A stretch of DNA of 30,273 bases from a virus. Position 1 is the stretch's first letter. Each line of letters starts with the position of its first letter. This document shows positions 15,736-27,144 of this stretch, one piece after another. Made by a program: the position numbers and the translations under genes. The DNA is taken from positions 1-30,273 of IMG/VR virus record IMGVR_UViG_3300034118_000328. One strand, written 5' to 3'. A model generated the notes under the pieces. It was not told the origin of the DNA, did no database searches, and worked only from the letters and a program-made list of their open reading frames with translations.

Positions 15736-16536
15736 TTACAGATTTGCAAAGGAGTCTAAGGCATACCAAACATGGGAATTGCGGTAACCACCAGGATGAG
15801 TGGGAATGATTGGGGTTACACCGTGCATGTTTCTCCATGCAGGGTAGACAAGAAGTGAATTATTAGTTTGATCGAAGGCGGCATTGTAATCAGGCACATA
15901 AAGATTGCCACCTGTGGAGTTTTGCCGTTTTGTGATGATGAGATTTATTGCGCCTTTGACATTGGCATTATCTTGATGGATTGGTGCTGCAATATTGCAA
16001 TTTGAGATTGTGGAGGAGAAATATGGAGTGAAGCGCCAAGGTTCAGGAACACGTTTTTGGATAACGGCAAGGTGTTTGGCATGTACGTCTGGGATGTAGT
16101 GAGCGACCAAGCCCATGGCGAGTTTGCCTGCTTTAAGCATGGCGCGGACAAATGTTGATGCTGTTGGTTTGGAATGAACCGATGAGCGTGAGGCATATGG
16201 TCTGCGCATATGTGGCTTAGGTGGCACACTGCCAAGGATGGCGGAATATTGAGAAACAACAAGGTAACGTCTCTTACCATCAGGACCAGGAGGCAAAGGG
16301 CGTTTACGATCCATCATGGTTTTGGGAACACGATCTGAGCGGACTTCAGCGTCTGCGATGTTGACAAGATTTTGTAGGTCTGACGGCAGTTCTTTTAGGA
16401 AAAGTCCTACTTGACTCCCATCAGGATCAAGAAGGATGCAGGATTCGGTAATGGTGGCTGGCTGTGTTGGACAAGTATCACCAATTTTGATGTTGTGTTT
16501 GATTGGGTTAAGGATTATGGACTGAAGTTTTTCCAT
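15736..16536 (-). CDS. TET/JBP-like 2-oxoglutarate Fe(II) dioxygenase
   Basis: The product has 266 residues. The C-terminal 90 residues show a double-stranded beta-helix oxygenase: His187-Gln-Asp189 and His238 as the iron triad, Arg252 in GGYRNSHVWYAL as the likely 2-oxoglutarate contact. Between them, TGGNLYVPDYN and LLVYPAWRNMHGVTPI match the GG-x-L-x-x-P-x-Y and H-G-x-x-P-I pattern of the TET/JBP family, which oxidises the methyl group of 5-methylcytosine or thymine in DNA. The N-terminal 170 residues have conserved-looking PPKPHMRRPYASRSSVHS and a helical part. The start overlaps the glycosyltransferase stop (TAATG). Substrate and even base cannot be told from sequence; a protein or nucleotide substrate is possible but the neighbours favour DNA. 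Confidence 0.8.
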   Translation of the reverse strand: MEKLQSIILNPIKHNIKIGDTCPTQPATITESCILLDPDGSQVGLFLKELPSDLQNLVNIADAEVRSDRVPKTMMDRKRPLPPGPDGKRRYLVVSQYSAILGSVPPKPHMRRPYASRSSVHSKPTASTFVRAMLKAGKLAMGLVAHYIPDVHAKHLAVIQKRVPEPWRFTPYFSSTISNCNIAAPIHQDNANVKGAINLIITKRQNSTGGNLYVPDYNAAFDQTNNSLLVYPAWRNMHGVTPIIPTHPGGYRNSHVWYALDSFANL

Positions 16537-17294
16537 TAGCGGACGATGCGATCAAGAGATTTAGCGTAAGCGGAAATATCTAGTTTGCAGTCAATACGAT
16601 CTTTTTTCTTGATGAGTTTAGTGTATGGAGCCCATTCTGCGGCAAGTTTTGCGGCTGCTTCGTGGTCGCGTTGTTGTTGGTAAAGGCTTTGCAAGCCCCC
16701 GGCATTTGTGCCGACACCTGGGCAAGCGAACCATGAGTGTGTATCAATGATGATGCCATCGGAATGTTTGATAGCTTGCATACAAAAATCACGATCCTCT
16801 TTGAGGTTTAACCTTGCGCGATACTGCCAGGTGATTTTTGGTATGTAGAGCAATGTGCAGACTTCCGCTGTTTTTTTATTGATTTGATAGCGTATTTTGC
16901 CAGTTGAGTAAGACCAAGCGTATTGACAATAATTGATGCCATTAAGCGGGAAACGGTATTGCTCAACCCTTGAATGGAAATCTGAAAGTATTTTGGCTGT
17001 ATCTTTAATAGTTTTGCCTTGCTTGGCATAGCCAAAGCCTTGGACATCATCATCTATCATCCAAATCCATTGTGCGGCAGTGGATTTGGCGTGATCTATG
17101 ATGAAATTACGAACGTAGGCAATGCCCTGATTGTTATCAGGCAATGTCAAAAGGTTTGGGACGCTGGCATTTTGATAAGCAGTACGGTCTTGTGGTTCAA
17201 CAACGTGGATGATGTTGAAATCATGCCCTGCGAACAGGATGTGTGTTTTGGTGGTTGGTCTGCCTTTGGACGGTATGTAGACAGTTGTTGTCAT
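16536..17294 (-). CDS. Glycosyltransferase, TET-associated type (GT-A fold)
   Basis: The product has 252 residues. Signs of a GT-A type enzyme are VYIPSKGRP at 5-13, GIAYVRNFI at 57-65, the metal/nucleotide-sugar motif IDDDV at 80-84, LKEDRDFCMQ near 164-173 (possible catalytic acid) and GVGTNAGG at 193-200. The IPSKGR start, the triple Asp, and the NAGG segment are as I recall for glycosyltransferases that sit beside TET/JBP genes in phages (TAGT). Such enzymes add sugar to the hydroxymethyl base made by the oxygenase. It overlaps the ParB gene upstream (ATGA) and the oxygenase downstream. The sugar cannot be predicted. Confidence 0.8.
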   Translation of the reverse strand: MTTTVYIPSKGRPTTKTHILFAGHDFNIIHVVEPQDRTAYQNASVPNLLTLPDNNQGIAYVRNFIIDHAKSTAAQWIWMIDDDVQGFGYAKQGKTIKDTAKILSDFHSRVEQYRFPLNGINYCQYAWSYSTGKIRYQINKKTAEVCTLLYIPKITWQYRARLNLKEDRDFCMQAIKHSDGIIIDTHSWFACPGVGTNAGGLQSLYQQQRDHEAAAKLAAEWAPYTKLIKKKDRIDCKLDISAYAKSLDRIVR

Positions 17295-17887
17295 GCTGCA
17301 TCCTTCAGGGCGTTAATCAGCATCATGCCAACATATTCACCATTTTTACGAGCCTGAGCAACAAGTGCTTGGGCTTCTTCATAGTCTTCTGGTTCGAAGT
17401 CAATTTGTATTGCTTTACGCACGCCTGCTGCAAATTCAGACAAGTCATCTTCATCATCTTCCAAGGCAGACAGGTCAATGTCTTCTCCAAAGGTAGGAAG
17501 ATCTTCGCCCCAGCCAAGAACAGTAAGATCAAAACCAAGTTCACCCAGCGCCTGCAGTTCTGATTGCAAGAGGTTGTCATCCCAGCCTGAGTTGAGGGCA
17601 AGCTGATTGTCTGCAATGACATAAGCGCGACGTTGCTGTGGCGTCAGATGAGACAGAGTGATGGTTGGAACCGTTTTGAGCCCAAGGATTTTGGCTGCCT
17701 CCAGGCGACCATGCCCAGCGATAATGTTAAGTTGGTCATCAACAAGAATTGGGTTCGTAAACCCAAACTCTTTGAAGGAATTTACGAGGCGTTCGATTTG
17801 AACTGGTGAATGAGTGCGGGGGTTTTTGTCGTATGGCTTGAGTTTGGTTACGGGGGTTTGGTCGATGAACTCTGGTGCAGTGACCAT
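17291..17887 (-). CDS. ParB/Srx-fold protein (ParB-like nuclease domain)
   Basis: The product has 198 residues. Residues 12-95 form a ParB N-terminal domain: KLKPYDKNPRTHS, then FGFTNPILVD, IIAGHGRLEAA with the GHGR box at 58-61, and RAYVIADNQLAL at 87-98. The C-terminal half is acidic and helical and lacks a ParB partition HTH. Lone ParB-fold proteins often accompany phage DNA-modification and methyltransferase genes, and ParB-fold domains are known as CTP or ATP binding and sometimes nuclease-like. Next to a TET/JBP and glycosyltransferase pair, a role in DNA modification or modification-dependent recognition is likely; this is inference. It starts eight bases after the upstream small gene. 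Confidence 0.85.
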   Translation of the reverse strand: MVTAPEFIDQTPVTKLKPYDKNPRTHSPVQIERLVNSFKEFGFTNPILVDDQLNIIAGHGRLEAAKILGLKTVPTITLSHLTPQQRRAYVIADNQLALNSGWDDNLLQSELQALGELGFDLTVLGWGEDLPTFGEDIDLSALEDDEDDLSEFAAGVRKAIQIDFEPEDYEEAQALVAQARKNGEYVGMMLINALKDAA

Positions 17888-18697: not shown

Positions 18698-18931
18698 TCA
18701 AAAAGGGAGCGGGGTTTCGTCATTTGCGGGTACAAAGTCGCGTGGGTTGACCACTTCGACCTTGGGGTCAGCGTCATCGACGGGATCGCGTAGCAGGTTG
18801 CGGTACATGCCTGGGTTGATGTGACCGGGCGGTGGTGCGTCAAAGTCCTCTAGCACGCACCGCTTGGCATCGATGAGGCGCTGCAGGAGCTTGCGGGCAC
18901 CGACAGCGGTTGAGATTGGTTTGAGTGCCAT
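18698..18931 (-). CDS. Small hypothetical protein
   Basis: The product has 77 residues. An N-terminal helix (VGARKLLQRLIDAKRCVLED) is followed by a Pro/Gly-rich segment (PPPGHINPGMYRNLLRD) and an acidic end. The Pro-rich patch with RNLLRDP resembles linker peptides in phage replication regions, but no family is recognised. Its ATG overlaps the upstream stop by one base (TGATG). Confidence 0.6.
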   Translation of the reverse strand: MALKPISTAVGARKLLQRLIDAKRCVLEDFDAPPPGHINPGMYRNLLRDPVDDADPKVEVVNPRDFVPANDETPLPF

Positions 18932-19227
18932 CAGGAGAATGCCTCCTCGCGCTTGCGCTCCTCATCGGCAAACGGATGCAGGACAAATCTGCCAGGGCTG
19001 ACGCCTTCGATGGCAGGCTTGTGGGTCATGTACCGACCGAACTCGTCGTAGCGCCCCACGCAATACGGGTAAGCGTTACGCAGTTGGAACTTATCAAGCT
19101 TGCGCTGCGCTTCATCAAAGTCGTCAGCATCAACGGTACGGAACGCTGGTGCGGTGCCTTCCTTGGCAGCTTTGGGCAGGACGGCAAAAACAAATTGGTT
19201 ACGGCTTTCTGGGCTGAACAGTTTCAT
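18931..19227 (-). CDS. Hypothetical protein in replication block
   Basis: The product has 98 residues from ATG 19227, chosen because it overlaps the stop of the O-like gene by four bases (ATGA); the frame upstream is a shadow of that gene. It has FVFAVLPKAAKEGTAPAFRT and RNAYPYCVGRYDEFGRYM, and ends in a basic/acidic tail. Its position right after the O-like gene suggests a replication helper such as a helicase loader partner, but nothing in the sequence shows this. Confidence 0.6.
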   Translation of the reverse strand: MKLFSPESRNQFVFAVLPKAAKEGTAPAFRTVDADDFDEAQRKLDKFQLRNAYPYCVGRYDEFGRYMTHKPAIEGVSPGRFVLHPFADEERKREEAFS

Positions 19228-19997
19228 CGGATCACATCGGGGATGTAGTTGGTGGTGTTGAGGGGGCGGTCGTTGACGGTGAGGTAACGCTCGTCGCGTA
19301 GCCAGCGGAAGCAATCAGGCAAGGGGCTGACGAACGTGCCCGCTGCGAGGTGCTGATGGCTGATCTCAGTTTCCAATGCTTCGAGCAAGCTGGCAACGGT
19401 TTCGGTCCGGAGAGTTTTCTGCCACTGCCCAAGGGCTTTGGGCTTTGACTGACTGGCAGCGCGTACAGGGGCTGAAAGGTACGTTTTCCAGAACTGCTCA
19501 AAGGCTGGATCGCCTTTGGTTCTACGCCTTGGCGCGGGTTGGTCAGACGCTGCTGGAAACTCGTTTTCCAGCTTTACATGGGTTCTTGTTATGGGTTCTT
19601 GTTCATGGGTTCTTGTTTGTAGGTCGTTTTCGACCTGGGTAGCTAGGTCGTTTTCGACCTGACCCCTAGGTCGTTTTTGACCTGGGTCGTTTTTGACCTT
19701 AGGTCGTTTTCGACCTGGGTGGTCTAGGACGACGTGGTACACGGCACTGGTGCCAGGGCGGCGTTCAACCTCCAGCCAGCCGGTTTCTACAAGTGTGCTC
19801 AAGGACCGCTGAACGACCTTCCGTGAGATACCAGAACGATCTGAGATTGTTTGCAGTGATGCGTAGCAGCCTTTCGGGGAGTTCCAGCCGAACCTGTGTA
19901 ACCAGAGATAAACAACGATGGCTTTTGAATCGATGCCGGCGTCCATGAGTTTGTATGGGACGGCAGCAAAAGCCGTGGACTTAACCGCAGCGGTCAT
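19224..19997 (-). CDS. Phage replication protein O-like, winged helix
   Basis: The product has 257 residues from ATG 19997. Residues 43-85 form a winged helix-turn-helix (YASLQTISDRSGISRKVVQR, then LVETGWLEVERR). The C-terminal part has FEQFWKTYLSAPVRAASQSK, KALGQWQKTL and ending FRWLRDERYL, the layout of replisome-organiser C-termini in many phages. The linker at residues 94-140 is encoded by two repeat arrays. In lambda the origin iterons lie inside gene O in the same place. An earlier GTG at 20042 is in frame, with AGGGG directly abutting it; neither start has a well-spaced ribosome site. Confidence 0.75.
   Translation of the reverse strand: MTAAVKSTAFAAVPYKLMDAGIDSKAIVVYLWLHRFGWNSPKGCYASLQTISDRSGISRKVVQRSLSTLVETGWLEVERRPGTSAVYHVVLDHPGRKRPKVKNDPGQKRPRGQVENDLATQVENDLQTRTHEQEPITRTHVKLENEFPAASDQPAPRRRTKGDPAFEQFWKTYLSAPVRAASQSKPKALGQWQKTLRTETVASLLEALETEISHQHLAAGTFVSPLPDCFRWLRDERYLTVNDRPLNTTNYIPDVIR
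19578..19617. repeat. Three direct repeats ATGGGTTCTTGTT
   Basis: Three perfect 13-base copies lie at 19578-19590, 19591-19603 and 19605-19617. Spacings of 13 and 14 place them in different reading frames of the O-like gene, so the conservation is at DNA level. They directly follow the five-copy array at 19621-19716 and may be part of an origin. Confidence 0.75.
19621..19716. repeat. Five-copy AGGTCGTTTTCGACCT array
   Basis: Copies start at 19621, 19645, 19668, 19684 and 19701. Each is a six-base inverted repeat around TTTT. Copies 1, 2 and 5 are identical, copies 3 and 4 have TTTTTGACCT, and copy 4 begins G instead of A. Spacings of 24, 23, 16 and 17 read in different frames (as KRP, VKND or VEND), so selection acts on DNA, not peptide. 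Candidate iterons bound by the protein of the same gene, or operators. Confidence 0.85.
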
Positions 19998-20021
19998 GTA
20001 AGATTTGCCCGTGATTTGTCT

Positions 20022-20059
20022 ACGCCTTGCAGGGTCCTTCACCCCTGCGGGGCGTTTTT
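20022..20059 (+). terminator. Plus-facing terminator hairpin
   Basis: On the plus strand, 20023-20034 pairs with 20043-20054 over 12 pairs (ten Watson-Crick and two U-G), with an eight-base loop, followed by TTTTT at 20055-20059. It faces right although no plus-strand gene lies to its left. Its loop spans the in-frame GTG at 20042 of the O-like gene, and its T-run ends at the first base of the stop codon (TGA, 20059-20061) of the small RHH gene. Its job is not clear. Confidence 0.6.
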
Positions 20060-20232
20060 CATTGTGGCAGCAGTGGCAAGTCTTTAGTGACGCTGCCCGC
20101 CTTGGTTTCTACCGCTTCAAACAAGAGTTGGTTGACAAATGCCTTGCGGGTCAGATGGGATGGCTGGATTGCGTCAATGCGTGACAAAATAGCTTTGTCG
20201 ATGGCGATGCTTGTTGCTCTGCCAATAGTCAT
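20059..20232 (-). CDS. Small ribbon-helix-helix protein
   Basis: The product has 57 residues from ATG 20232: MTIGRATSIAIDKAILSRID, then QPSHLTRKAFVNQLLFEAV. A strand (TSIAID) followed by two helices is the layout of small Arc/CopG-type repressors. It starts 32 bases from the divergent nuclease gene, so it is well placed to repress both directions. It is the first gene of the minus-strand transcript. Confidence 0.6.
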   Translation of the reverse strand: MTIGRATSIAIDKAILSRIDAIQPSHLTRKAFVNQLLFEAVETKAGSVTKDLPLLPQ

Positions 20233-20264
20233 GAGCGTCGATTTTGGTTTGAAACCGATCTATT

Positions 20265-20903
20265 ATGGCATCACAGCAAAGCGACAGCACGTTGCTCAAG
20301 CCGATTTCTGGTCTCCAGTTCAACAGTGACCTGCATCGTTATCGGTACAACGGGCGTTGGCTGCCATTTAGCGTTTCGCGCATCACCAACCGCACCACAC
20401 CAGAACAGGAGGCGCAGTTTGAGCGAACCAAGCACATTTGGGCGCCACGCGGCACGACTATCCATGCCTTCTGCGAGGCAATGCTGCTAGGCGAAGAGCT
20501 GCCCGAGACTGATTACACGGCGTGGACCGATGAGCTGCAGGAGTGCTGGCTGCTGCGTGACTCTGATGCACTGGCTGTTGAGTACAGGCTGTGCGATGCC
20601 CGCAAGGGCGTTGGCGGCAGCTTTGACTTCCTACTGCGGACATCAAATGGAAAGATCGTGCTCGGTGACCTGAAGACCGTTGGCAGCAACTCAGGCGTAA
20701 CGCAACGCAAGCCAGCCACAGCACAGCTTGGGGGCTACCTTGCCATGTTGATCGACCATCACCCGATGGTGACGGTGGACTGGTGCTACACAGTGGTGGT
20801 CGGTCCTGGGCGCTGCAGGGTAATCCAAAGTGAGCCTGACGAGTGCTTGGGTGCTTGGGTGGATGCTTGGGACGCCTTCAAAGTCCATAGCTGCCCATTC
20901 TAA
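20265..20903 (+). CDS. PD-(D/E)XK nuclease superfamily protein
   Basis: The product has 212 residues. Motifs of the Cas4/RecB/lambda-exonuclease-like fold are seen in order: RGTTIHAFCEAM (62-73), VEYRL (105-109), GGSFDFLL with Asp121, GDLKT with Asp135 and Lys137, and QLGGYLAML (154-162), the usual motif IV. It probably supplies a 5'-3' exonuclease for recombination with the annealing protein and SSB encoded later. The stop is followed by 32 bases and then the first strong promoter. Confidence 0.85.
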   Translation: MASQQSDSTLLKPISGLQFNSDLHRYRYNGRWLPFSVSRITNRTTPEQEAQFERTKHIWAPRGTTIHAFCEAMLLGEELPETDYTAWTDELQECWLLRDSDALAVEYRLCDARKGVGGSFDFLLRTSNGKIVLGDLKTVGSNSGVTQRKPATAQLGGYLAMLIDHHPMVTVDWCYTVVVGPGRCRVIQSEPDECLGAWVDAWDAFKVHSCPF

Positions 20904-20935
20904 ATTGTTTCAAATAATTTCAGCGTGGAAACCGC

Positions 20936-20964
20936 TTGCTTTTTGGTTGGTTTTGCTGTTTAAT
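20936..20964 (+). promoter_or_regulatory. Promoter P1 (TTGCTT-17-TTTAAT)
   Basis: A -35 TTGCTT at 20936-20941 and -10 TTTAAT at 20959-20964 with a 17-base spacer. It lies 33 bases after the nuclease gene and about 44 bases before ATG 21008. It shares most of its bases, including the spacer, with P2 at 23434-23462. It drives the first small-gene operon. Confidence 0.7.
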
Positions 20965-21007
20965 AGAGGTACGGGGCGCTTGTGCTCCACATCTCACTTT
21001 GTAAATC

Positions 21008-21187
21008 ATGCAAACCATTCAAGAGCAACTGGACGCAACCAAGCTGTTGTTGTCTGATGCCCAAACTGAATATGCGCATTCATTTGCTCGTGGCGACTTT
21101 GCCGCATGTGGTCCTGCCAAGCGCCGCGCCAACAAACTGATGCGCGAAGTGCAGTTCTTGGTGGCTCAAAAACTTGCAGCACTCTGA
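21008..21187 (+). CDS. Small helical hypothetical protein
   Basis: The product has 59 residues from ATG 21008, the first gene after P1. It is a helical protein with QEQLDATKLLLSDAQTEYA and basic KRRANKLMREVQFLVAQ. No ribosome site stands out before the ATG. Function unknown. Confidence 0.65.
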   Translation: MQTIQEQLDATKLLLSDAQTEYAHSFARGDFAACGPAKRRANKLMREVQFLVAQKLAAL

Positions 21188-21190
21188 ACC

Positions 21191-21442
21191 ATGAAAACCT
21201 TTGAAGTCGGTCAGGTTTATTACGGCACGCTTTGCGTTGCCCATGGGGACTTCCCAGTTCGTTGCATCAAACGTTCTGACAAGTCTGTTTGGTTTGAGCA
21301 TGTCACTATGCCTCATGCTTACGGCGCAGGACGTTGCAAGCTCCATAAGTTCGATAATGGCACTGAAGCTGCCGAATTTCGTCGTTGGTACATCAGCAGC
21401 ACCAAACTTACTGGAGGCGATTTCGACCCCATGACCATCTGA
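21191..21442 (+). CDS. Small hypothetical protein, beta type
   Basis: The product has 83 residues, starting three bases after the previous stop. It has FEVGQVYYGTLCVAHGDFPV and VWFEHVTMPHAY, a beta-rich pattern with several aromatic residues, and ends in GGDFDPMTI. Resembles small phage proteins of the type found near recombination operons; no function known. Confidence 0.65.
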   Translation: MKTFEVGQVYYGTLCVAHGDFPVRCIKRSDKSVWFEHVTMPHAYGAGRCKLHKFDNGTEAAEFRRWYISSTKLTGGDFDPMTI

Positions 21443-21445
21443 TTC

Positions 21446-21631
21446 ATGTACGAAGTTTTTTGCACCATTACAGATGAACTTGGAACCCGCACTGTCTCAA
21501 CCGGCTCTGCCGCATTTCTTGAAATCGTCGCGTACGACAAGCTTGACCTTCTCAAACGCAACTGCACCATCGAGGGCGCAACGTTCTTCGTTGAATACGC
21601 CCCGCAGACGGATGCGTGGAATTCCTTCTAA
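21446..21631 (+). CDS. Small hypothetical protein
   Basis: The product has 61 residues: MYEVFCTITDELGTRTV, a middle helix AFLEIVAYDKLDLL, and an aromatic end. It is packed three bases after the neighbour upstream and four bases before the next. No family recognised. Confidence 0.6.
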   Translation: MYEVFCTITDELGTRTVSTGSAAFLEIVAYDKLDLLKRNCTIEGATFFVEYAPQTDAWNSF

Positions 21632-21635
21632 AACC

Positions 21636-21758
21636 ATGAACCGCGTCAACAATGCTATTTGCCTGCTGTTTGCTACCGCAGCTTTTGCCATGATTGGATT
21701 TGAGGCTGCCGGTCATCATGGCTCAACCCATTCCGGCACCCAGGAGTTGCGGAGATGA
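21636..21758 (+). CDS. Tiny membrane protein
   Basis: The product has 40 residues from ATG 21636. ICLLFATAAFAMIGFEAAG at 8-26 is a hydrophobic segment, either a signal anchor or one membrane span, with a polar His/Ser-rich end. The stop overlaps the next start (ATGA). Function unknown. Confidence 0.55.
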   Translation: MNRVNNAICLLFATAAFAMIGFEAAGHHGSTHSGTQELRR

Positions 21759-21961
21759 CCACCACCAGCACCAACCGTCGTGACCATGTTTACGTCTGCA
21801 ATTTTGATGCCGTAGAACTTGATCTGTTGTACGAACTGGCACGCGACGCACGCAATAGCCTGCCAGACCCAGAAGATCAAATTGAAGAAGGCAGTTGGGC
21901 TGATGCCATTATCAAGCTCGACTCCAAACTGACTAAGCTTTTTCGCCAACGCCGCCAATGA
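21755..21961 (+). CDS. Small hypothetical protein
   Basis: The product has 68 residues: Thr-rich start, then a helical part VELDLLYELARDARN and SWADAIIKLDSKLTKLFRQ. The gene overlaps its neighbours at both ends by four bases (ATGA). Helical, acidic in the middle and basic at the end. No family recognised. Confidence 0.6.
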   Translation: MTTTSTNRRDHVYVCNFDAVELDLLYELARDARNSLPDPEDQIEEGSWADAIIKLDSKLTKLFRQRRQ

Positions 21962-22089
21962 ACCCCTACAACCTGACGTGGCAAACAAGACTATTGTTTT
22001 GGTTGCTTTCTATGCGCCCAGATGTCACCGCAATCCGTCTGCGCTCTGAAGTAGACCACCTCCAACACTGCCTTGTGAAATCACGATGA
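21958..22089 (+). CDS. Tiny hypothetical protein
   Basis: The product has 43 residues from ATG 21958. It begins MNPYNLTWQTRLLFWLLSMR, an aromatic-rich amphipathic or weak membrane helix, followed by VTAIRLRSEVDHLQHCLVK. ATGA overlaps at both ends support the call. Function unknown. Confidence 0.55.
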   Translation: MNPYNLTWQTRLLFWLLSMRPDVTAIRLRSEVDHLQHCLVKSR

Positions 22090-22271
22090 AACGACCACTC
22101 GTACGCTCTGTGCCAATGGAATTGATTCTCACGGGTTTCCATTGGGAAACCGTCCGGGAGGAATATTTCCTAAAGTACGGGCAATTTGCAAAAGCCCAAG
22201 ACTGCAAACAGCTTCGCGCTTTGTACAAAGAACGTCTTTGGAACGAGTGCGGCATTGACGTTACCCTCTGA
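22086..22271 (+). CDS. Small hypothetical protein
   Basis: The product has 61 residues, overlapping the previous stop (ATGA). It has MELILTGFHWETVREEYF and a helix-rich end with LRALYKERLWNECGIDV. Ordinary soluble small protein; no family recognised. Confidence 0.6.
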   Translation: MKRPLVRSVPMELILTGFHWETVREEYFLKYGQFAKAQDCKQLRALYKERLWNECGIDVTL

Positions 22272-22281
22272 TTTTACAAAA

Positions 22282-23013
22282 ATGAGCATCCCTGCAAACA
22301 TTGAAGCGATCCCCTATCGCTGGTTCGCTACGCCAAGCACCAACAAAAACGGCAAAAAGCAAGGCGGCAAGGTAGCTGTTATGCATTCAAACGCCACAGA
22401 TTTTGCTGACGTGCTGGTATATGAACCGGACAACGAAGAATGGTGGGACCTTGTACCTGCCGATGTGGCAATCCGTGCTGCGATCCGTGGTCCAGCGCAA
22501 AATGAATCAGACCTTATTGCTTTTGCATTGCCATTGGCAAATCAACCCACTGAGACTCAACAACGCATTTTGGAACGGATGCCAGAACTTCAAATCATAA
22601 TCAAACCACAAAGTGAACCAATGCAAACGATCGTAAAAACAGAAGAACCAATCGCACAGGTTCAAAAGAAAACTGATCATGGGCAAGATGCCTTGCAGAG
22701 GCAACAGGCAAAACGACTGCAAAGGTTAGTACTGCAAGGCGAATGGATCGAAAAGCATGAACAACAGTTGAAGGTGATCCAATCTGTTGTTTCGCACGCT
22801 ATGGAAGAATGGTTTAATGACGATTCTGATGAATGTCATAGCAATGCAATGTATCAAATGAATGATGCACTTTGTTTACTTACCGATATTGTTCGCGATT
22901 TGCGCTATAACTGCCATTACCCAGACGAAAGCCGAGAGGGCGTTTTGTACTACCATTCTTTCAATGGTGGGATTACAGAAGTTGTCGATCTCAGCAAGGT
23001 GCCAAAGGAATGA
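22282..23013 (+). CDS. Hypothetical protein, helical C-terminus
   Basis: The product has 243 residues from ATG 22282; the frame upstream overlaps another gene and was dropped. The first 80 residues have a Trp-rich pattern (PYRWFATPSTNKNG, later YEPDNEEWWDLVP), the middle is a Gln/Lys/Glu-rich linker, and the end has a helical part followed by REGVLYYHSFNGG. It is the largest gene of the first operon. Not recognised; a role in early host takeover is only a guess. Confidence 0.65.
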   Translation: MSIPANIEAIPYRWFATPSTNKNGKKQGGKVAVMHSNATDFADVLVYEPDNEEWWDLVPADVAIRAAIRGPAQNESDLIAFALPLANQPTETQQRILERMPELQIIIKPQSEPMQTIVKTEEPIAQVQKKTDHGQDALQRQQAKRLQRLVLQGEWIEKHEQQLKVIQSVVSHAMEEWFNDDSDECHSNAMYQMNDALCLLTDIVRDLRYNCHYPDESREGVLYYHSFNGGITEVVDLSKVPKE

Positions 23014-23210
23014 TCAGACTGGTCAAACATTTGTTTTTTCGCCTGATGTCCAGTTACGAGTATTTGCCACCTGATGATTGCTTGCCGCGATTCCGTGGCA
23101 AGTCCCTCAAAGACTTTGACCCAGAATGGCAGGTGGCTTACTTGGAATACGTGTTCCTGCTGGATTGCTCTAAGCACTACCAGCTAAAGCCTGGTGAGAT
23201 GCCAGACTGA
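23010..23210 (+). CDS. Small hypothetical protein
   Basis: The product has 66 residues, overlapping the previous stop by four bases. It contains PDDCLPRFRGKSLKDFDPEW and VAYLEYVFLLD, soluble in look. It ends the first small-gene operon. Function unknown. Confidence 0.6.
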   Translation: MIRLVKHLFFRLMSSYEYLPPDDCLPRFRGKSLKDFDPEWQVAYLEYVFLLDCSKHYQLKPGEMPD

Positions 23211-23433
23211 TAACGAGGCATTGGGTGACTGGTGCAAACTTCGGTCGCTATGGTTGCTGCCTGCGTAGGGGATACCACTGGTCGGGCTAACTGGTGGATA
23301 AAGGCATCCCAAGCGCAAGAAGCCAAGGTTCCCGTCGTGGACGCGGTGTAGTGCCAGCGGTGCGTGACCGTACATTGGCGCCGCGCAAGCAACCTGCCCA
23401 TGTAAGTCCTCAACCTTTCCAATGGAAAAGGGG
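23211..23433 (+). other. Leader region without clear gene
   Basis: This stretch between the first operon and P2 holds no convincing gene. A 33-codon frame from ATG 23250 to TAG 23351 (MVAACVGDTTGRANWWIKAS) and a basic frame from GTG 23294 (VDKGIPSARSQGSRRGRG) both look partly protein-like but overlap each other. Longer reverse frames look like shadows. The second frame would run through P2. It may hold a small gene, a leader RNA, or decayed sequence. Confidence 0.3.
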
Positions 23434-23462
23434 TTGCTTTTCGGGCGGTTTTGCCCCATAAT
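23434..23462 (+). promoter_or_regulatory. Promoter P2 (TTGCTT-17-CATAAT)
   Basis: A -35 TTGCTT at 23434-23439 and -10 CATAAT at 23457-23462 with a 17-base spacer. The spacer shares GG and GGTTTTGC with P1 at the same positions. It lies about 45 bases before ATG 23508. It would drive the recombination operon to the terminator at 25936-25957. Confidence 0.72.
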
Positions 23463-23507
23463 ACGGAGACGCGGGACAGCCCCGCAGCCCAACGCGCAAC
23501 TCAACCC

Positions 23508-23738
23508 ATGCTTCCTTTCCAGCCCACCGACTGCCCTGAGCTGACCGCCGAGCAAGAAACGGCAATGGCTCATGACCTTGCAGATCAGTTCAATGCCTAC
23601 GTCTGCGAGGAGCTTGTTGGCGTCCTAGCTCACCTGGCGCAAGACGTTCTCAAAGACAACTACATCGACCCTGATTCCATGCTGGGTCACGACCTGATCC
23701 ATGACCTGATCAACCGCATCGTGGTAACCGCCAAATGA
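23508..23738 (+). CDS. Small acidic hypothetical protein
   Basis: The product has 76 residues from ATG 23508; an earlier in-frame start at 23451 would lie inside the promoter. It is acidic and helical with LADQFNAYVCEELVGVLAHL and HDLIHDLINRIVV. First gene after P2. Function unknown. Confidence 0.65.
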   Translation: MLPFQPTDCPELTAEQETAMAHDLADQFNAYVCEELVGVLAHLAQDVLKDNYIDPDSMLGHDLIHDLINRIVVTAK

Positions 23739-23935
23739 AGCACACCGTCCGCCTCCAGCGTGGGCTCTACGTGCTTGTTGATTCCTACGCCAGACCCACC
23801 TTTGCTTCACGCATCCGTCAGCACTTCCCGATTGCCCTTTGCCTGACCAGCATCCTCGTCGCAGGCATCACGCTTCAAGTCATTGAGCAACGCACCATCA
23901 CTGCTTGCCAAACCACCCATCGCGCATCCTTCTAA
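23735..23935 (+). CDS. Small membrane protein
   Basis: The product has 66 residues, overlapping the previous stop by four bases. A basic N-terminal 28 residues precede a hydrophobic span IALCLTSILVAGITLQV (33-49), then a short polar end with one Cys. One membrane span with N-terminus inside is likely. Function unknown. Confidence 0.6.
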   Translation: MKHTVRLQRGLYVLVDSYARPTFASRIRQHFPIALCLTSILVAGITLQVIEQRTITACQTTHRASF

Positions 23936-23937
23936 TC

Positions 23938-24249
23938 ATGTCAACCGCACAAGACCTTATTGATCAACTTGTCACCCTGCGTGCAGACAAAGAAGATCTA
24001 GAAGCCCGTGAGGCATTCCTGCGTGAGCAGCTTGAAGGTGCCATTGCCCTAGGCGAACTTGACCCCTACCAAATCGATGACAGCACCTACGAGTTCGTGA
24101 ACGCCAAGTACGTCCGCTGTGAACGCAACAGTTACAAACTCAGCAAGGAAGCCGAACGGGCAATCAGATCTATTAAAGAACAGGACATCGACGCTGGACT
24201 TGCCCAGCGGAACGTGACAATCTACTACCAGCTCCGCATGAACCCTTGA
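23938..24249 (+). CDS. Hypothetical protein, coiled coil
   Basis: The product has 103 residues from ATG 23938 (two bases after the previous stop). The first 45 residues form a charged coiled coil with LIDQLVTLRADKEDLEARE, followed by a beta part with YEFVNAKYVRCERN. It overlaps the resolvase start by four bases. Resembles small phage proteins in recombination operons, but no function is known. Confidence 0.65.
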   Translation: MSTAQDLIDQLVTLRADKEDLEAREAFLREQLEGAIALGELDPYQIDDSTYEFVNAKYVRCERNSYKLSKEAERAIRSIKEQDIDAGLAQRNVTIYYQLRMNP

Positions 24250-24689
24250 ACACCAGCATCACCTTCGCTGTCCATGGGCTGCCAGCACCTCAAGGTTCAA
24301 AACGGCATATGGGCAACGGGATCATGGTGGAGTCAAGCAAAAAGGTCAAACCATGGCGGCAGGATACAAAATACGCCGCACTGGAAGCCAAGCCAGCCGA
24401 CTGGGATACATCTGGCCCCATGTCTTTGTCCGTTGTCTTTCGGTTCCAAAGACCAGCCGCTCATTACCTGAAAAATGGTCTACGCCCGACCGCCCCCTGC
24501 TACGTCACCTCAGCCCGCAATGGAGACCTTGACAAGCTCCTGCGGTCTACCTGCGATGCCATGACTGGCATCCTCTTCGATGATGACCGCCAAGTCGTCA
24601 GCATCAACGCTATTAAGCGTTACTGCAACACCAACGAACAACCTGGCGCCATCATCACGCTCACTGCGCTAAACCTCACAGACCAATGA
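24246..24689 (+). CDS. rusA: RusA-family Holliday junction resolvase
   Basis: The product has 147 residues. GLPAPQGSKR near residue 11, GDLDKLLRSTCDAMTGIL (93-110) with Asp94, Asp96 and Asp104, DDDRQVV (112-118) and Lys124 match the RusA active-site pattern. RusA cuts four-way DNA junctions. The start is TTG 24246 overlapping the previous stop (TTGA); the first ATG, at codon 22, would remove the PQGSKR motif. The gene precedes an annealing protein and SSB. Confidence 0.88.
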   Translation: MNTSITFAVHGLPAPQGSKRHMGNGIMVESSKKVKPWRQDTKYAALEAKPADWDTSGPMSLSVVFRFQRPAAHYLKNGLRPTAPCYVTSARNGDLDKLLRSTCDAMTGILFDDDRQVVSINAIKRYCNTNEQPGAIITLTALNLTDQ

Positions 24690-25387
24690 CCTTTCCAAAT
24701 CTTGCGGGCGTCATCACCAAAGATGATGTATTCCGCAAAGGCACCGGATCCTACGCCGCAGATTACGTTTCTTGGGCACGGATCGCTAATCACCTGCATA
24801 CCAGCGCCCCCGGCTGGATCATGCAAACCAAAACAGCACCGCATGGCGAGAACCATGTCTGGCGCAGTCCTGATGGCTCTGGTTATTTGACCGTCTACTT
24901 CCTGCATACAGACGGCACAGAGACACCAGATTTTGTTTATGCCATCACCGACAATCGCAATGTTCCGATTGCGTGGGACAAGATCAATAGCCGCATGATT
25001 TGCGATAGCCATCGCCGTGCGCTTTGTGCTGCTGCTGCATTTTTCTTTAGCCTTGGCTACGAGCTATGGGCACGAGAGGAGATTGAAGAGGCAAAGGCTG
25101 ACAGCCCGTTACCAACTGTTGAGCAGCCCGCTGCTGCCAAAGCAAAGCCCGTTGCCGCAGCTACAAAGAAGGAAGAGCCACCTGAGTTGTCGTCAGAAGA
25201 ACTCCCGATCACTGACGGTGATCTAAAAACGATCCGTGACTTGCTGGCAGCAGAACCTGTTGTCAAAAGGAACAAAATCATTAAGGAGTTCAACAAGGAA
25301 TTTGCCGTGCCTGAGGGTGATCTCATGACTGCCCACATCACGCTTCCTAAACACCTGCGCTACATCCAGGAACGGCTATCCACCTAA
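24686..25387 (+). CDS. DUF1071/Sak-like DNA annealing protein
   Basis: The product has 233 residues. An N-terminal YVSWARIANHL segment, the central YAITDNRNVPIAWDKINS and the RRALCAAAAFFFSLGYELWA helix follow the DUF1071 plan, a family grouped with Sak/Erf-type single-strand annealing proteins. The last 100 residues are a linker and a small helical domain (EGDLMTAHITLPKHLRY). It acts with RusA, SSB and the PD-(D/E)XK nuclease in recombination-dependent replication. Start overlaps RusA by four bases. The family call is by eye. Confidence 0.7.
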   Translation: MTFPNLAGVITKDDVFRKGTGSYAADYVSWARIANHLHTSAPGWIMQTKTAPHGENHVWRSPDGSGYLTVYFLHTDGTETPDFVYAITDNRNVPIAWDKINSRMICDSHRRALCAAAAFFFSLGYELWAREEIEEAKADSPLPTVEQPAAAKAKPVAAATKKEEPPELSSEELPITDGDLKTIRDLLAAEPVVKRNKIIKEFNKEFAVPEGDLMTAHITLPKHLRYIQERLST

Positions 25388-25399
25388 CAAGGATCAGCC

Positions 25400-25669
25400 A
25401 TGACCGATGAGATGATGCACGCCCAAATGGCGGCAGCATATGCCGCTCAACGTGCAGAGCTGGTTAAACAGCAGGACAATCATCTCCAACAGCTTCTTCC
25501 GCCTGATTTGGTATCTTTCCTGCAGCATTACATGCAGTCCAGGGAATATACAGCAAGACAGGCATTGTCCGTTATCCTTTACCAATTTTTCGGATCATGC
25601 TCCAAATCACAGCAGTTGGCAACCTTGCCGCCGACCCTGAACTCAAAACCATTGGTGACCGTGAAGTAG
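25400..25669 (+). CDS. Small hypothetical protein overlapping ssb
   Basis: The product has 89 residues from ATG 25400, after AAGGATCAG. It has AQMAAAYAAQRAELVKQQDN and PPDLVSFLQHYMQSREYTARQAL, helical in look. The last 24 codons overlap the start of ssb in another frame, 73 bases in all, an unusually long overlap for this genome. The C-terminal peptide may be unselected. Function unknown. Confidence 0.55.
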   Translation: MTDEMMHAQMAAAYAAQRAELVKQQDNHLQQLLPPDLVSFLQHYMQSREYTARQALSVILYQFFGSCSKSQQLATLPPTLNSKPLVTVK

Positions 25670-25929
25670 CCAACTTCACCTTGATGGTCAACAAAAAGGT
25701 CAAAGGCGAAGACCATACGACAGTGCTCCGCTGTGCCGTATGGGGTCCACGCGCCAAGGTGGTAGGCGATTACCTGACCAAAGGTGCTCAAGTCACCGTT
25801 ACTGGGCAGGCATACGTTGAGACCTTTGCACGGAAGGACGGCAGCCCTGGCGCTTCCTTGGATGTAGCGGTCAATGATTTTTCACTGCCTGCCAAGACAA
25901 AGGTTGCAGTAGACGACATGCCGTTCTAG
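25597..25929 (+). CDS. ssb: Single-stranded DNA-binding protein
   Basis: The product has 110 residues: an OB-fold start MLQITAVGNLAADPEL, VANFTLMVN, RCAVWGPRAKVVGDYLTKGA and QVTVTGQAYVETF as in SSB proteins, and the acidic tip DDMPF, which recruits partner proteins. It is shorter than the cellular protein but complete. It is the last gene before the terminator at 25936. Confidence 0.92.
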   Translation: MLQITAVGNLAADPELKTIGDREVANFTLMVNKKVKGEDHTTVLRCAVWGPRAKVVGDYLTKGAQVTVTGQAYVETFARKDGSPGASLDVAVNDFSLPAKTKVAVDDMPF

Positions 25930-25935
25930 GGTCTC

Positions 25936-25957
25936 GGGGGCTCTGCCCCCTTTTTTT
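25936..25957 (+). terminator. Intrinsic terminator between ssb and sigma
   Basis: GGGGGC (25936-25941), loop TCT, GCCCCC (25945-25950) and seven T (25951-25957). It is a strong rho-independent terminator. It lies seven bases after the ssb stop and eight bases before the sigma-factor ATG, so sigma translation depends on read-through or on a promoter inside ssb. Confidence 0.88.
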
Positions 25958-25965
25958 ATGATCGG

Positions 25966-26892
25966 ATGTCGGACCCTCTGCGCGATTACCTAAACCAGAT
26001 CGGCAAAATCCCGCTGCTAACCGCTGCCGAGGAGATTGAGCTGGGTCATGCCGTGCAGCGGATGGTGGCACTCAGATCAAAGCAGGAACACAGCAGAGAG
26101 GAGCTGCGGCATATCAAAGCAGGCATCCGGGCAAAAAAACGGATGATCCAAGGGAACCTGCGGCTGGTGATTGGCATCGCGTCAAAGTACAAGCACCTTG
26201 CGAATCGCGTCACTCTGCACGACCTAGTGCAGGAAGGCAATATCGGCTTGATCCGTGCCGTTGAGCTCTTTGATCCAGAGCGCGGCTACAAGTTTTCGAC
26301 GTATGCGTACTGGTGGATCCGTCAGGGCATCATGCGTTCAATCCAAGTACAGGACCGGATCATCAAATTGCCATCAGGCGCTAGCGACATCCTGCGCAAG
26401 GTTAAAACTTACATGGTTGAGCATCAGGACCTTTACGGTGAGCCGCCTTCCATCGAGCAATGCGCTGCACATGCTGGCGTTGCACCTAACACCCTTCGGG
26501 ATTACATGCATAGCGCACAGGATGCTGTGAGCCTTGACGCAAAAGCAAGAACGCAAAATGAGGATGGCAGTTCAATCCTTGATTTAATAGCTGCCGAAAA
26601 TGAAAAGCCTGAGGATGATCTAATTTTGACAACCAAGGTACAAGCCGTTCAACAAGCACTTTCGTATATGTGCGAAAACAGCAAAATGATTCTGAGTATG
26701 CGTTATGGGCTAGACGGTGAGGAACCTTGCTCCAAGCGTGAGATTGCCCGAAGGATAGGTATCGCGCAGGACACTACCGCTAGGTTGCTTGTTAACGCAG
26801 AGCGGCAACTAAGGCTGATCCTAAAAGAGGGACCGCCGGGAAAGTATCAACCACAGAAACACAGCTCCAGCTTGATCTGGGGTTGGGGGTAA
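25966..26892 (+). CDS. Sigma-70 family factor, cyanobacterial type
   Basis: The product has 308 residues. It has region 1.2 (DPLRDYLNQIGKIPLLTAAE), region 2 (NLRLVIGIASKYKHL, LVQEGNIGLIRAVELFDPER, KFSTYAYWWIRQGIMRSIQ), region 3 (PPSIEQCAAHAGVAPNTLRD) and region 4 with a helix-turn-helix (SKREIARRIGIAQDTTARLL). The layout is that of cyanobacterial group 2/3 sigma factors, without a long region 1.1. It probably redirects host RNA polymerase to phage promoters. The C-terminal 20 residues after region 4 are extra. The ribosome site is weak (GATCGG) and lies beside the terminator. Confidence 0.92.
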   Translation: MSDPLRDYLNQIGKIPLLTAAEEIELGHAVQRMVALRSKQEHSREELRHIKAGIRAKKRMIQGNLRLVIGIASKYKHLANRVTLHDLVQEGNIGLIRAVELFDPERGYKFSTYAYWWIRQGIMRSIQVQDRIIKLPSGASDILRKVKTYMVEHQDLYGEPPSIEQCAAHAGVAPNTLRDYMHSAQDAVSLDAKARTQNEDGSSILDLIAAENEKPEDDLILTTKVQAVQQALSYMCENSKMILSMRYGLDGEEPCSKREIARRIGIAQDTTARLLVNAERQLRLILKEGPPGKYQPQKHSSSLIWGWG

Positions 26893-26895
26893 GCC

Positions 26896-27144
26896 ATGTC
26901 AGTTAACAGAATGGGGCCGCCGTGTCCTGCTTGCGGTTCCTTGACTACTGATGTCATGCGCACTTGCCGCAGTGAAACAGGAGATTTTCATCGCCGCCGT
27001 GAATGCCCATGCTGTAATCATCGGTTCAATACAATTCAGATGAGAGAACTTTTGGCACCACCAACGAGCGCCAAATGGAAAGATCGCAAGGTCACAATCA
27101 ACTGGCGTCGTGTCAGTAAACAACTGCTTAGCCTGTTGCAATGA
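26896..27144 (+). CDS. NrdR-type zinc ribbon protein
   Basis: The product has 82 residues. CPACGS (Cys10, Cys13), RTCRSETGDFHRRRECPCC (Cys37, Cys40) and NHRFNTIQ match the zinc-ribbon N-terminus of NrdR, the repressor of ribonucleotide reductase genes, which has RRRECxxCxxRFTT. The ATP-cone domain of NrdR is missing; a short basic helix follows. It may bind DNA or act on transcription; the role is unknown. It overlaps the next gene by four bases. Confidence 0.65.
   Translation: MSVNRMGPPCPACGSLTTDVMRTCRSETGDFHRRRECPCCNHRFNTIQMRELLAPPTSAKWKDRKVTINWRRVSKQLLSLLQ

Follow-up and report, generated by a model that had tools for sequence, protein, structure and literature searches.

P1 and P2 sites and their place in the genome

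The stretch analysed here, which we refer to as the window, is a 30273-base virus contig from IMG/VR (IMGVR_UViG_3300034118_000328), on which a plus-strand arm with an exonuclease-like gene, small genes, RusA, a Sak-like annealing protein, SSB, a sigma factor and an endolysin carries two promoter-like sites, P1 and P2. P1 (20936–20964, plus strand) reads TTGCTT-TTTGGTTGGTTTTGCTG-TTTAAT, with the −35 at 20936–20941, a 17-base spacer at 20942–20958 and the −10 at 20959–20964, and P2 (23434–23462, plus strand) reads TTGCTT-TTCGGGCGGTTTTGCCC-CATAAT, with the −35 at 23434–23439, a 17-base spacer at 23440–23456 and the −10 at 23457–23462. Taking +1 as the seventh base after the −10, the predicted starts are 20971 and 23469 respectively. 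The structural genes (terminase, portal, head and tape measure) lie on the minus strand. The portal protein is 80% identical with that of cyanophage KBS-S-2A, 76% with that of S-H1 and 60% with that of MED4-117 and, judged by its portal and sigma relatives, the window is a cyanosiphophage with a presumed cyanobacterial host.

Both sites have the hexamers and the 16–18-base spacing of sigma70-type promoters, with a −35 that departs from TTGACA at positions 4–6. The initial annotation had described twin promoters alike in the −35, the spacing, most of the spacer and the bases after the −10, and the letters bear out the first three of these: TTGCTT and the 17-base spacing are found in both, and both spacers contain GG and GGTTTTGC, with TAAT in common in the −10. 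Over the 30 positions that start with the initial T of the −35, 23 agree. Past the −10, the likeness comes down to approximately one adjoining base; farther downstream the two are not notably alike, and no within-phage matching was found there in the 11 phages described below. A pattern derived from P1 and P2, and to that extent circular, finds only these two sites in the window at up to three mismatches, and none of 100 shuffles yields two. A fairer measure is the count of 30-base segment pairs with at least 23 matches, of which the window holds 10 and four shuffled windows hold 1, 1, 0 and 1; by this measure the likeness of the letters is no more than a mild surprise and, taken alone, weak evidence. 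A generic promoter scan requiring at least 4/6 per hexamer listed neither P1 nor P2, and its promoter-like sites occurred at the chance rate.

Recurrence and within-phage matching of the two sites

The exact motif is present in 10 IMG/VR stretches, mostly near copies of the window with P2 only. The one exact-motif relative that carries P1 too, unchanged (L006/L013), is not independent evidence, because this contig is identical with the window over 20000–26900, and in near copies of the L004 type (exonuclease 91% identical) P2 is kept and P1 differs, reading TTGCAT-17-CATCCT by eye. Diverged sites were scanned in 22 of the sources fetched via the sigma protein and in loci fetched via an RNA described below, and counterparts were found at the same two places, P1 after the exonuclease region and P2 upstream of the unit leading to the sigma gene. 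In a profile of 24 sites, the bases of TTGC occur at 20, 23, 19 and 20 of 24, and T at positions −10 and −7 in all 24. In phages S-CBS3, KBS-S-2A, S-CBS1 and S-LBS1, no site of the P1/P2 type clearly exceeds the highest score in shuffles, 15.6, the best scoring 15.8 (S-CBS3). In MED4-117 (L090), a minus-strand site at 18723, with a hairpin at +2 and before leftward genes, scores 14.3 and may be chance, since shuffled windows reach 15.6.

To compare the two sites without relying on P1 picked by eye, the 33-mer of each P2 was slid along the 560 bases 3′ of every phage's exonuclease stop codon. In 17 phages, with L004 standing for the near-identical window-type contigs, the mean match was 19.35/33 in a phage's own P1 region and 17.12 in foreign ones (p=4e-5), and p was 4e-5 in a first version with 16 phages, which omitted L077, 2e-5 with near relatives dropped (12 phages) and 1e-4 with the window excluded (16 phages). 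The test leaves aside loci with P2 but the exonuclease off the contig, or with the exonuclease but P2 unfound (L023, L037, L056, L060, L062, L066 and L068 among them). Strong twins (23–26/33) were found in six of the 17 phages, namely the window, L018, L021, L041, L045 and L061. Functionless chance matches would suit the modest raw identity and the chance-rate result of the generic scan, and identity alone leaves chance open; the recurrence of the pair and the comparison across phages, which holds with the window excluded, make this explanation very improbable.

The place of the matching was computed by anchoring the sites on the −10 in the 11 phages with a placeable P1. Positions −32 to −13 agree at 55% within and 43% between phages (p=0.0009), and the excess is confined to −32 to −19 (p=0.0034 for −32 to −26 and 0.0089 for −25 to −19). 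There was no significant matching at −80 to −61, −60 to −41, −39 to −33, the −10, −6 to −1 (p=0.54) or the leader (p=0.41 for +1 to +20 and 0.27 for +21 to +40), nor for TTG plus the −10 alone (p=0.07). As the flanks are unlike, a long tract spread recently by gene conversion was rejected as the source of the likeness. Because the block from −32 to −19 is kept alike within a phage and differs between phages, these data point to shared recognition. The initial annotation had suggested a protein that binds the spacer and a dedicated early regulon. Recognition by a common DNA-binding factor would require likeness in the spacer outside the sigma hexamers, and the matching does reach there; a separate spacer-binding protein is one candidate for that factor, and early expression a conjecture.

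The same unlike flanks bear on a simpler and, in our judgement, doubtful explanation, that P1 and P2 are ordinary host SigA promoters overlapping preceding terminators, alike because one terminator–promoter module was duplicated, with no special factor. A like spacer between unlike flanks is not what duplication alone predicts, nor what a longer tract recently converted would show. Their TTG and A/T-rich −10 do suit SigA sites, and Ma-LMM01 provides a precedent, as SigA-like motifs were reported there upstream of genes in every class (PMC5780444). In addition, terminator-like hairpins with T runs overlap some of the sites: a weak one at 20922–20946 (plus strand; −4.6 kcal/mol, z −0.08, without statistical support) overlaps the P1 −35, and one at 23411–23442 (plus strand; −8.1 kcal/mol, z −0.68), at the 3′ end of the RNA gene, overlaps the P2 −35. 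The latter is likewise without statistical support in the window, and the non-significance of both folds speaks against the module; the L030 counterpart of the second is clearer (z −2.71). As far as they could be compared from the available parts of the reports, the sigma70-type promoters of Ma-LMM01 (PMC5780444) and of P-SS2, which encodes sigma factors (PMC2784084), likewise have a TTG-type −35, an A/T-rich −10 and 16–18-base spacing, whereas matching of spacers within a phage and a predicted hairpin at the start occur only in the present set. Taken together, the comparisons indicate that P1 and P2 are very probably genuine promoters that have been maintained together.

Predicted leader hairpins, transcription units and a 197-nt RNA

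A hairpin is predicted at the 5′ end of both transcripts, at 20973–20988 for P1 and 23471–23485 for P2 (both plus strand), with the first pair at predicted +3 in each. Across 27 of 27 sites the first paired base falls at +1 to +3, although P1 and P2 differ in the letters used, as do the phages among themselves, most relatives spelling the P2 hairpin ATGAGGC..GCCTCA at +2 or +3. The 11 P1 leaders, to which no hairpin filter was applied, are the fairer sample because that filter shaped most P2 sites; seven of them fold at −6 kcal/mol or below, a stability that, together with pairing among the first six bases, is seen in 22% of 216 control windows. A 5′-terminal hairpin can slow decay that starts from the 5′ end. 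Ahead of the start codon, CCCAACGCG or CCCATCGCG is seen in most P2 leaders (23489–23497 in the window, and relatives), and in L045 the hairpin and CCCATCGCG are repeated farther downstream.

Downstream of P1 are seven small plus-strand genes (21008–21187, 21191–21442, 21446–21631, 21755–21961, 22086–22271, 22285–23013 and 23010–23210), none of which reaches the Pfam cut-off and five of which have no PHROGs match. The P2 unit (23508–25929, plus strand) starts with small genes at 23508–23738, 23735–23935 and 23938–24249 and continues with RusA (24246–24689), the Sak-like annealing protein (24686–25387) and SSB (25597–25929). The two co-regulated operons of small genes proposed initially are thus only partly recovered: there are two serial units with matched promoters, and the sites recur in relatives, but a strong twin exists in just 6/17 phages; small genes are indeed present, but the P1 unit also holds the 197-nt RNA and the P2 unit runs into RusA, the Sak-like protein and SSB.

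The structured RNA, recognized by covariation, lies between the P1 genes and P2 (23215–23411, plus strand), and 23254–23419 is unusually conserved across diverged relatives. Among the sequences examined there were 36 distinct full-length versions, of which 28 (the window and 27 homologues, eight near copies being omitted) were used for the model R1, trimmed to 23215–23411. The fold computed has 11 helices and 53 pairs, with 96.3% of cells paired compared with 87.6% in shuffles, and compensatory changes on both sides at 23 of the 53 pairs compared with 13.4 in shuffles (0/500 shuffles). Sliding the structure by one to three columns lowers pairing to 35–49% of cells, and a repeat on 16 sequences gave covariation at 21 of 55 pairs. 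Invariant G-U pairs indicate the plus strand. The case for this RNA rests on covariation, because the single-sequence fold is no better than that of shuffles (z 0.36). With near copies of the window excluded, both the RNA and the exonuclease gene were placeable in 23 distinct loci, and in all 23 the RNA follows that gene on its strand; wherever P2 was located, the RNA is upstream of it.

No Rfam family reached its gathering score in the window, and raising the E limit to 10 gave nothing but weak matches to unrelated families; with no Rfam or ARAGORN match to support them 6S RNA, tmRNA and tRNA were rejected as identities. An R1 search gave no convincing match in those parts of S-CBS3, KBS-S-2A, S-CBS1 and S-LBS1 that were fetched, none in another 21 sigma loci, of which many end short of the RNA's place, and nothing in S-H1 or MED4-117. 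The exact RNA core has a single match in the genome collection, in L081, which was set aside as chance, since it falls in a bacterial coding sequence (a PdxH-type oxidase by eye) and lacks the RNA 3′ end. Against phages, megablast with 19000–25000 gave no match and blastn with the RNA only short matches (E 9), and the literature searched, mostly without subscription papers, describes neither these promoters nor this RNA. The cyanophage RNAs manA, wcaG and PhotoRC-II are likewise structured, but according to the available part of their report all have Rfam accessions (PMC2864571), whereas the window has no Rfam match at all.

Three other features of the window were noted. At 19577–19717, within a minus-strand helix-turn-helix gene (19224–20042), TAGGTCGTTTTCGACCTG occurs five times and CATGGGTTCTTGTT three times, and L018, L020, L021, L045 and L047 contain repeats of a similar kind; the arrangement resembles that of lambda O, an initiator gene with the origin within it. 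A possible leftward promoter, judged by its letters, is found at 20232–20270 on the minus strand, where TGCCATAAT, with a weak −35, precedes a GGTTTCAAACC hairpin close to +1 and, after it, an ATG. Also on the minus strand, adjoining the terminase region, a glucosyltransferase-like gene and a ParB N-terminal-like gene lie side by side (16536–17294 and 17291–17887).

The phage sigma factor and a proposed shared reader of P1 and P2

Downstream of the P2 unit, a sigma-70 family factor of 308 amino acids is encoded at 25966–26892 (plus strand; phrog_351, E 3e-66, with Pfam and alignment in agreement). Pfam regions 1.2 and 2 are above the cut-off, whereas regions 3 (25.2 against 25.3) and 4 (19.6 against 24.1) fall just below, and the possession of regions 1.2, 2, 3 and 4 without a long N-terminal region 1.1, the region 1.2 match starting at residue 3, places it with group 2 sigma factors. 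The best NCBIfam match, TIGR02997 (cyanobacterial RpoD/SigA), scores 252.4 bits, under the curated cut-off of 384.5. Region 4.2 is divergent, unlike the SigA helix and variable between phages, and region 2.3–2.4 is steady. Homologous sigma factors are encoded in the replication arms of S-CBS3, KBS-S-2A, S-CBS1 and S-LBS1 (42%, 37%, 38% and 33% identity), which differ from the window in having no hairpin before sigma, no convincing 197-nt RNA in the fetched parts and no clear P1/P2 site.

It is possible, and we offer it only tentatively, that this sigma factor itself reads both sites, with the block after TTG bound by its divergent region 4, so that P1 and P2 would be its regulon and the sigma gene would feed back on the replication genes. 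The location of the gene downstream in the same arm and the variability of region 4.2 against a steady region 2.3–2.4 are consistent with this. The distance between P2 sequences at −39 to −19 also tracks that of region 4, beyond regions 1–3 (r=0.51, p printed as 0.000, 2000 permutations), but the control flank at −80 to −61 does so about equally (r=0.48, p=0.002); with this control failing, the correlation may reflect merely fast evolution, and coevolution of region 4 and promoter is not claimed. Further points against the phage sigma as reader are the canonical −35 of the L066 P1 (TTGACA-17-CATAGT; its sigma lies beyond the examined locus) and the position of the sigma gene after P2, because of which some P1/P2 activity should not need the phage sigma.

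Directly before the sigma gene, at 25936–25957 (plus strand), is a terminator-like GC hairpin with a T run, and such a hairpin with a T tract is found in 25 of 25 loci, 13–15 nt from the start codon, but in none of S-CBS3, KBS-S-2A, S-CBS1 and S-LBS1 (0/4). A candidate third promoter, P3 (TTGCAG-17-TAGGGT, 25904–25932, plus strand), overlaps the ssb 3′ end and adjoins the hairpin; TANNNT is present in 25/25 loci and TTG at 17 bases in 22/25, but the candidate is weak because the coding of ssb, with its tail and stop codon, accounts for most of this. The binding element of lambda Q lies within the late promoter, between the −35 and −10, and the matched block, as a putative protein site, lies likewise. 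By analogy, the block could be where a protein loads on to RNA polymerase and alters elongation past the hairpin before sigma, the 197-nt RNA perhaps having a related role in cis. The hairpin's presence in every locus and the position of the block would fit such a scheme, but there is no Q homologue or Q-like protein among the proteins scanned, and P3 could serve sigma without read-through; we consider it improbable.

T4 middle promoters provide another comparison, as they carry a MotA box, TTGCTTTA, near −30 and need MotA and AsiA. The box resembles TTGCTTTT of P1 and P2, but whereas the window has the box-like TTGCTTT, other twin phages read TTGCAA, TTGCGT or TTGTTT, and no MotA family member was found among 26 distinct window proteins, a subset of its open reading frames, scanned against Pfam or PHROGs.

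On balance, we favour the view that P1 and P2 are sigma70-type promoters of consecutive replication-arm units with one shared reader of −32 to −19. Several observations weigh against it. In 11 of the 17 phages the match is at background (15–17/33), including L004, whose P2 nearly equals that of the window, and therefore the tightly matched pair is not universal. The P1 sites of the 11-phage comparison were picked by eye with P2 or the −10 known, a possible bias of which the sliding test is free. The P2 leaders are not independent, because most P2 sites were located with a hairpin filter; across the window, the combination of promoter and hairpin at +1 is not enriched (5 compared with 4.15, sd 2.3); and a dyad operator in the spacer, with z about 3 across many tests, was unconvincing and is not claimed.

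From these sequences we infer promoter activity, a shared factor, and the timing and order of the units. One factor would read both sites, and it could be region 4 of whichever sigma is in use or else a small protein bound to the spacer. Each promoter would consist of a −35 of the TTGC.. type, a 17-base spacer and an A/T-rich −10, with RNA starting at the hairpin. P1 would give the small proteins and the 197-nt RNA, and P2 the recombination and SSB genes, with the phage sigma behind the terminator-like hairpin. An unlikely but wider proposal is that this clade of sigma-encoding cyanosiphophages runs its replication arm by a dedicated promoter code of paired promoters, in which the spacer block coevolves with a phage factor, the RNA of every unit opens with a protective hairpin and the 197-nt RNA, a product of the first unit, has RNA polymerase as its target, in trans or in cis.

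With strong compensatory support and no Rfam match, the RNA poses a testable question of function in a widespread phage group. The matching of two promoters in each genome, within a block for which the sigma hexamers do not account, offers a sequence-only route to regulons and their factor, and it is of value because for most viral contigs regulation is unknown.

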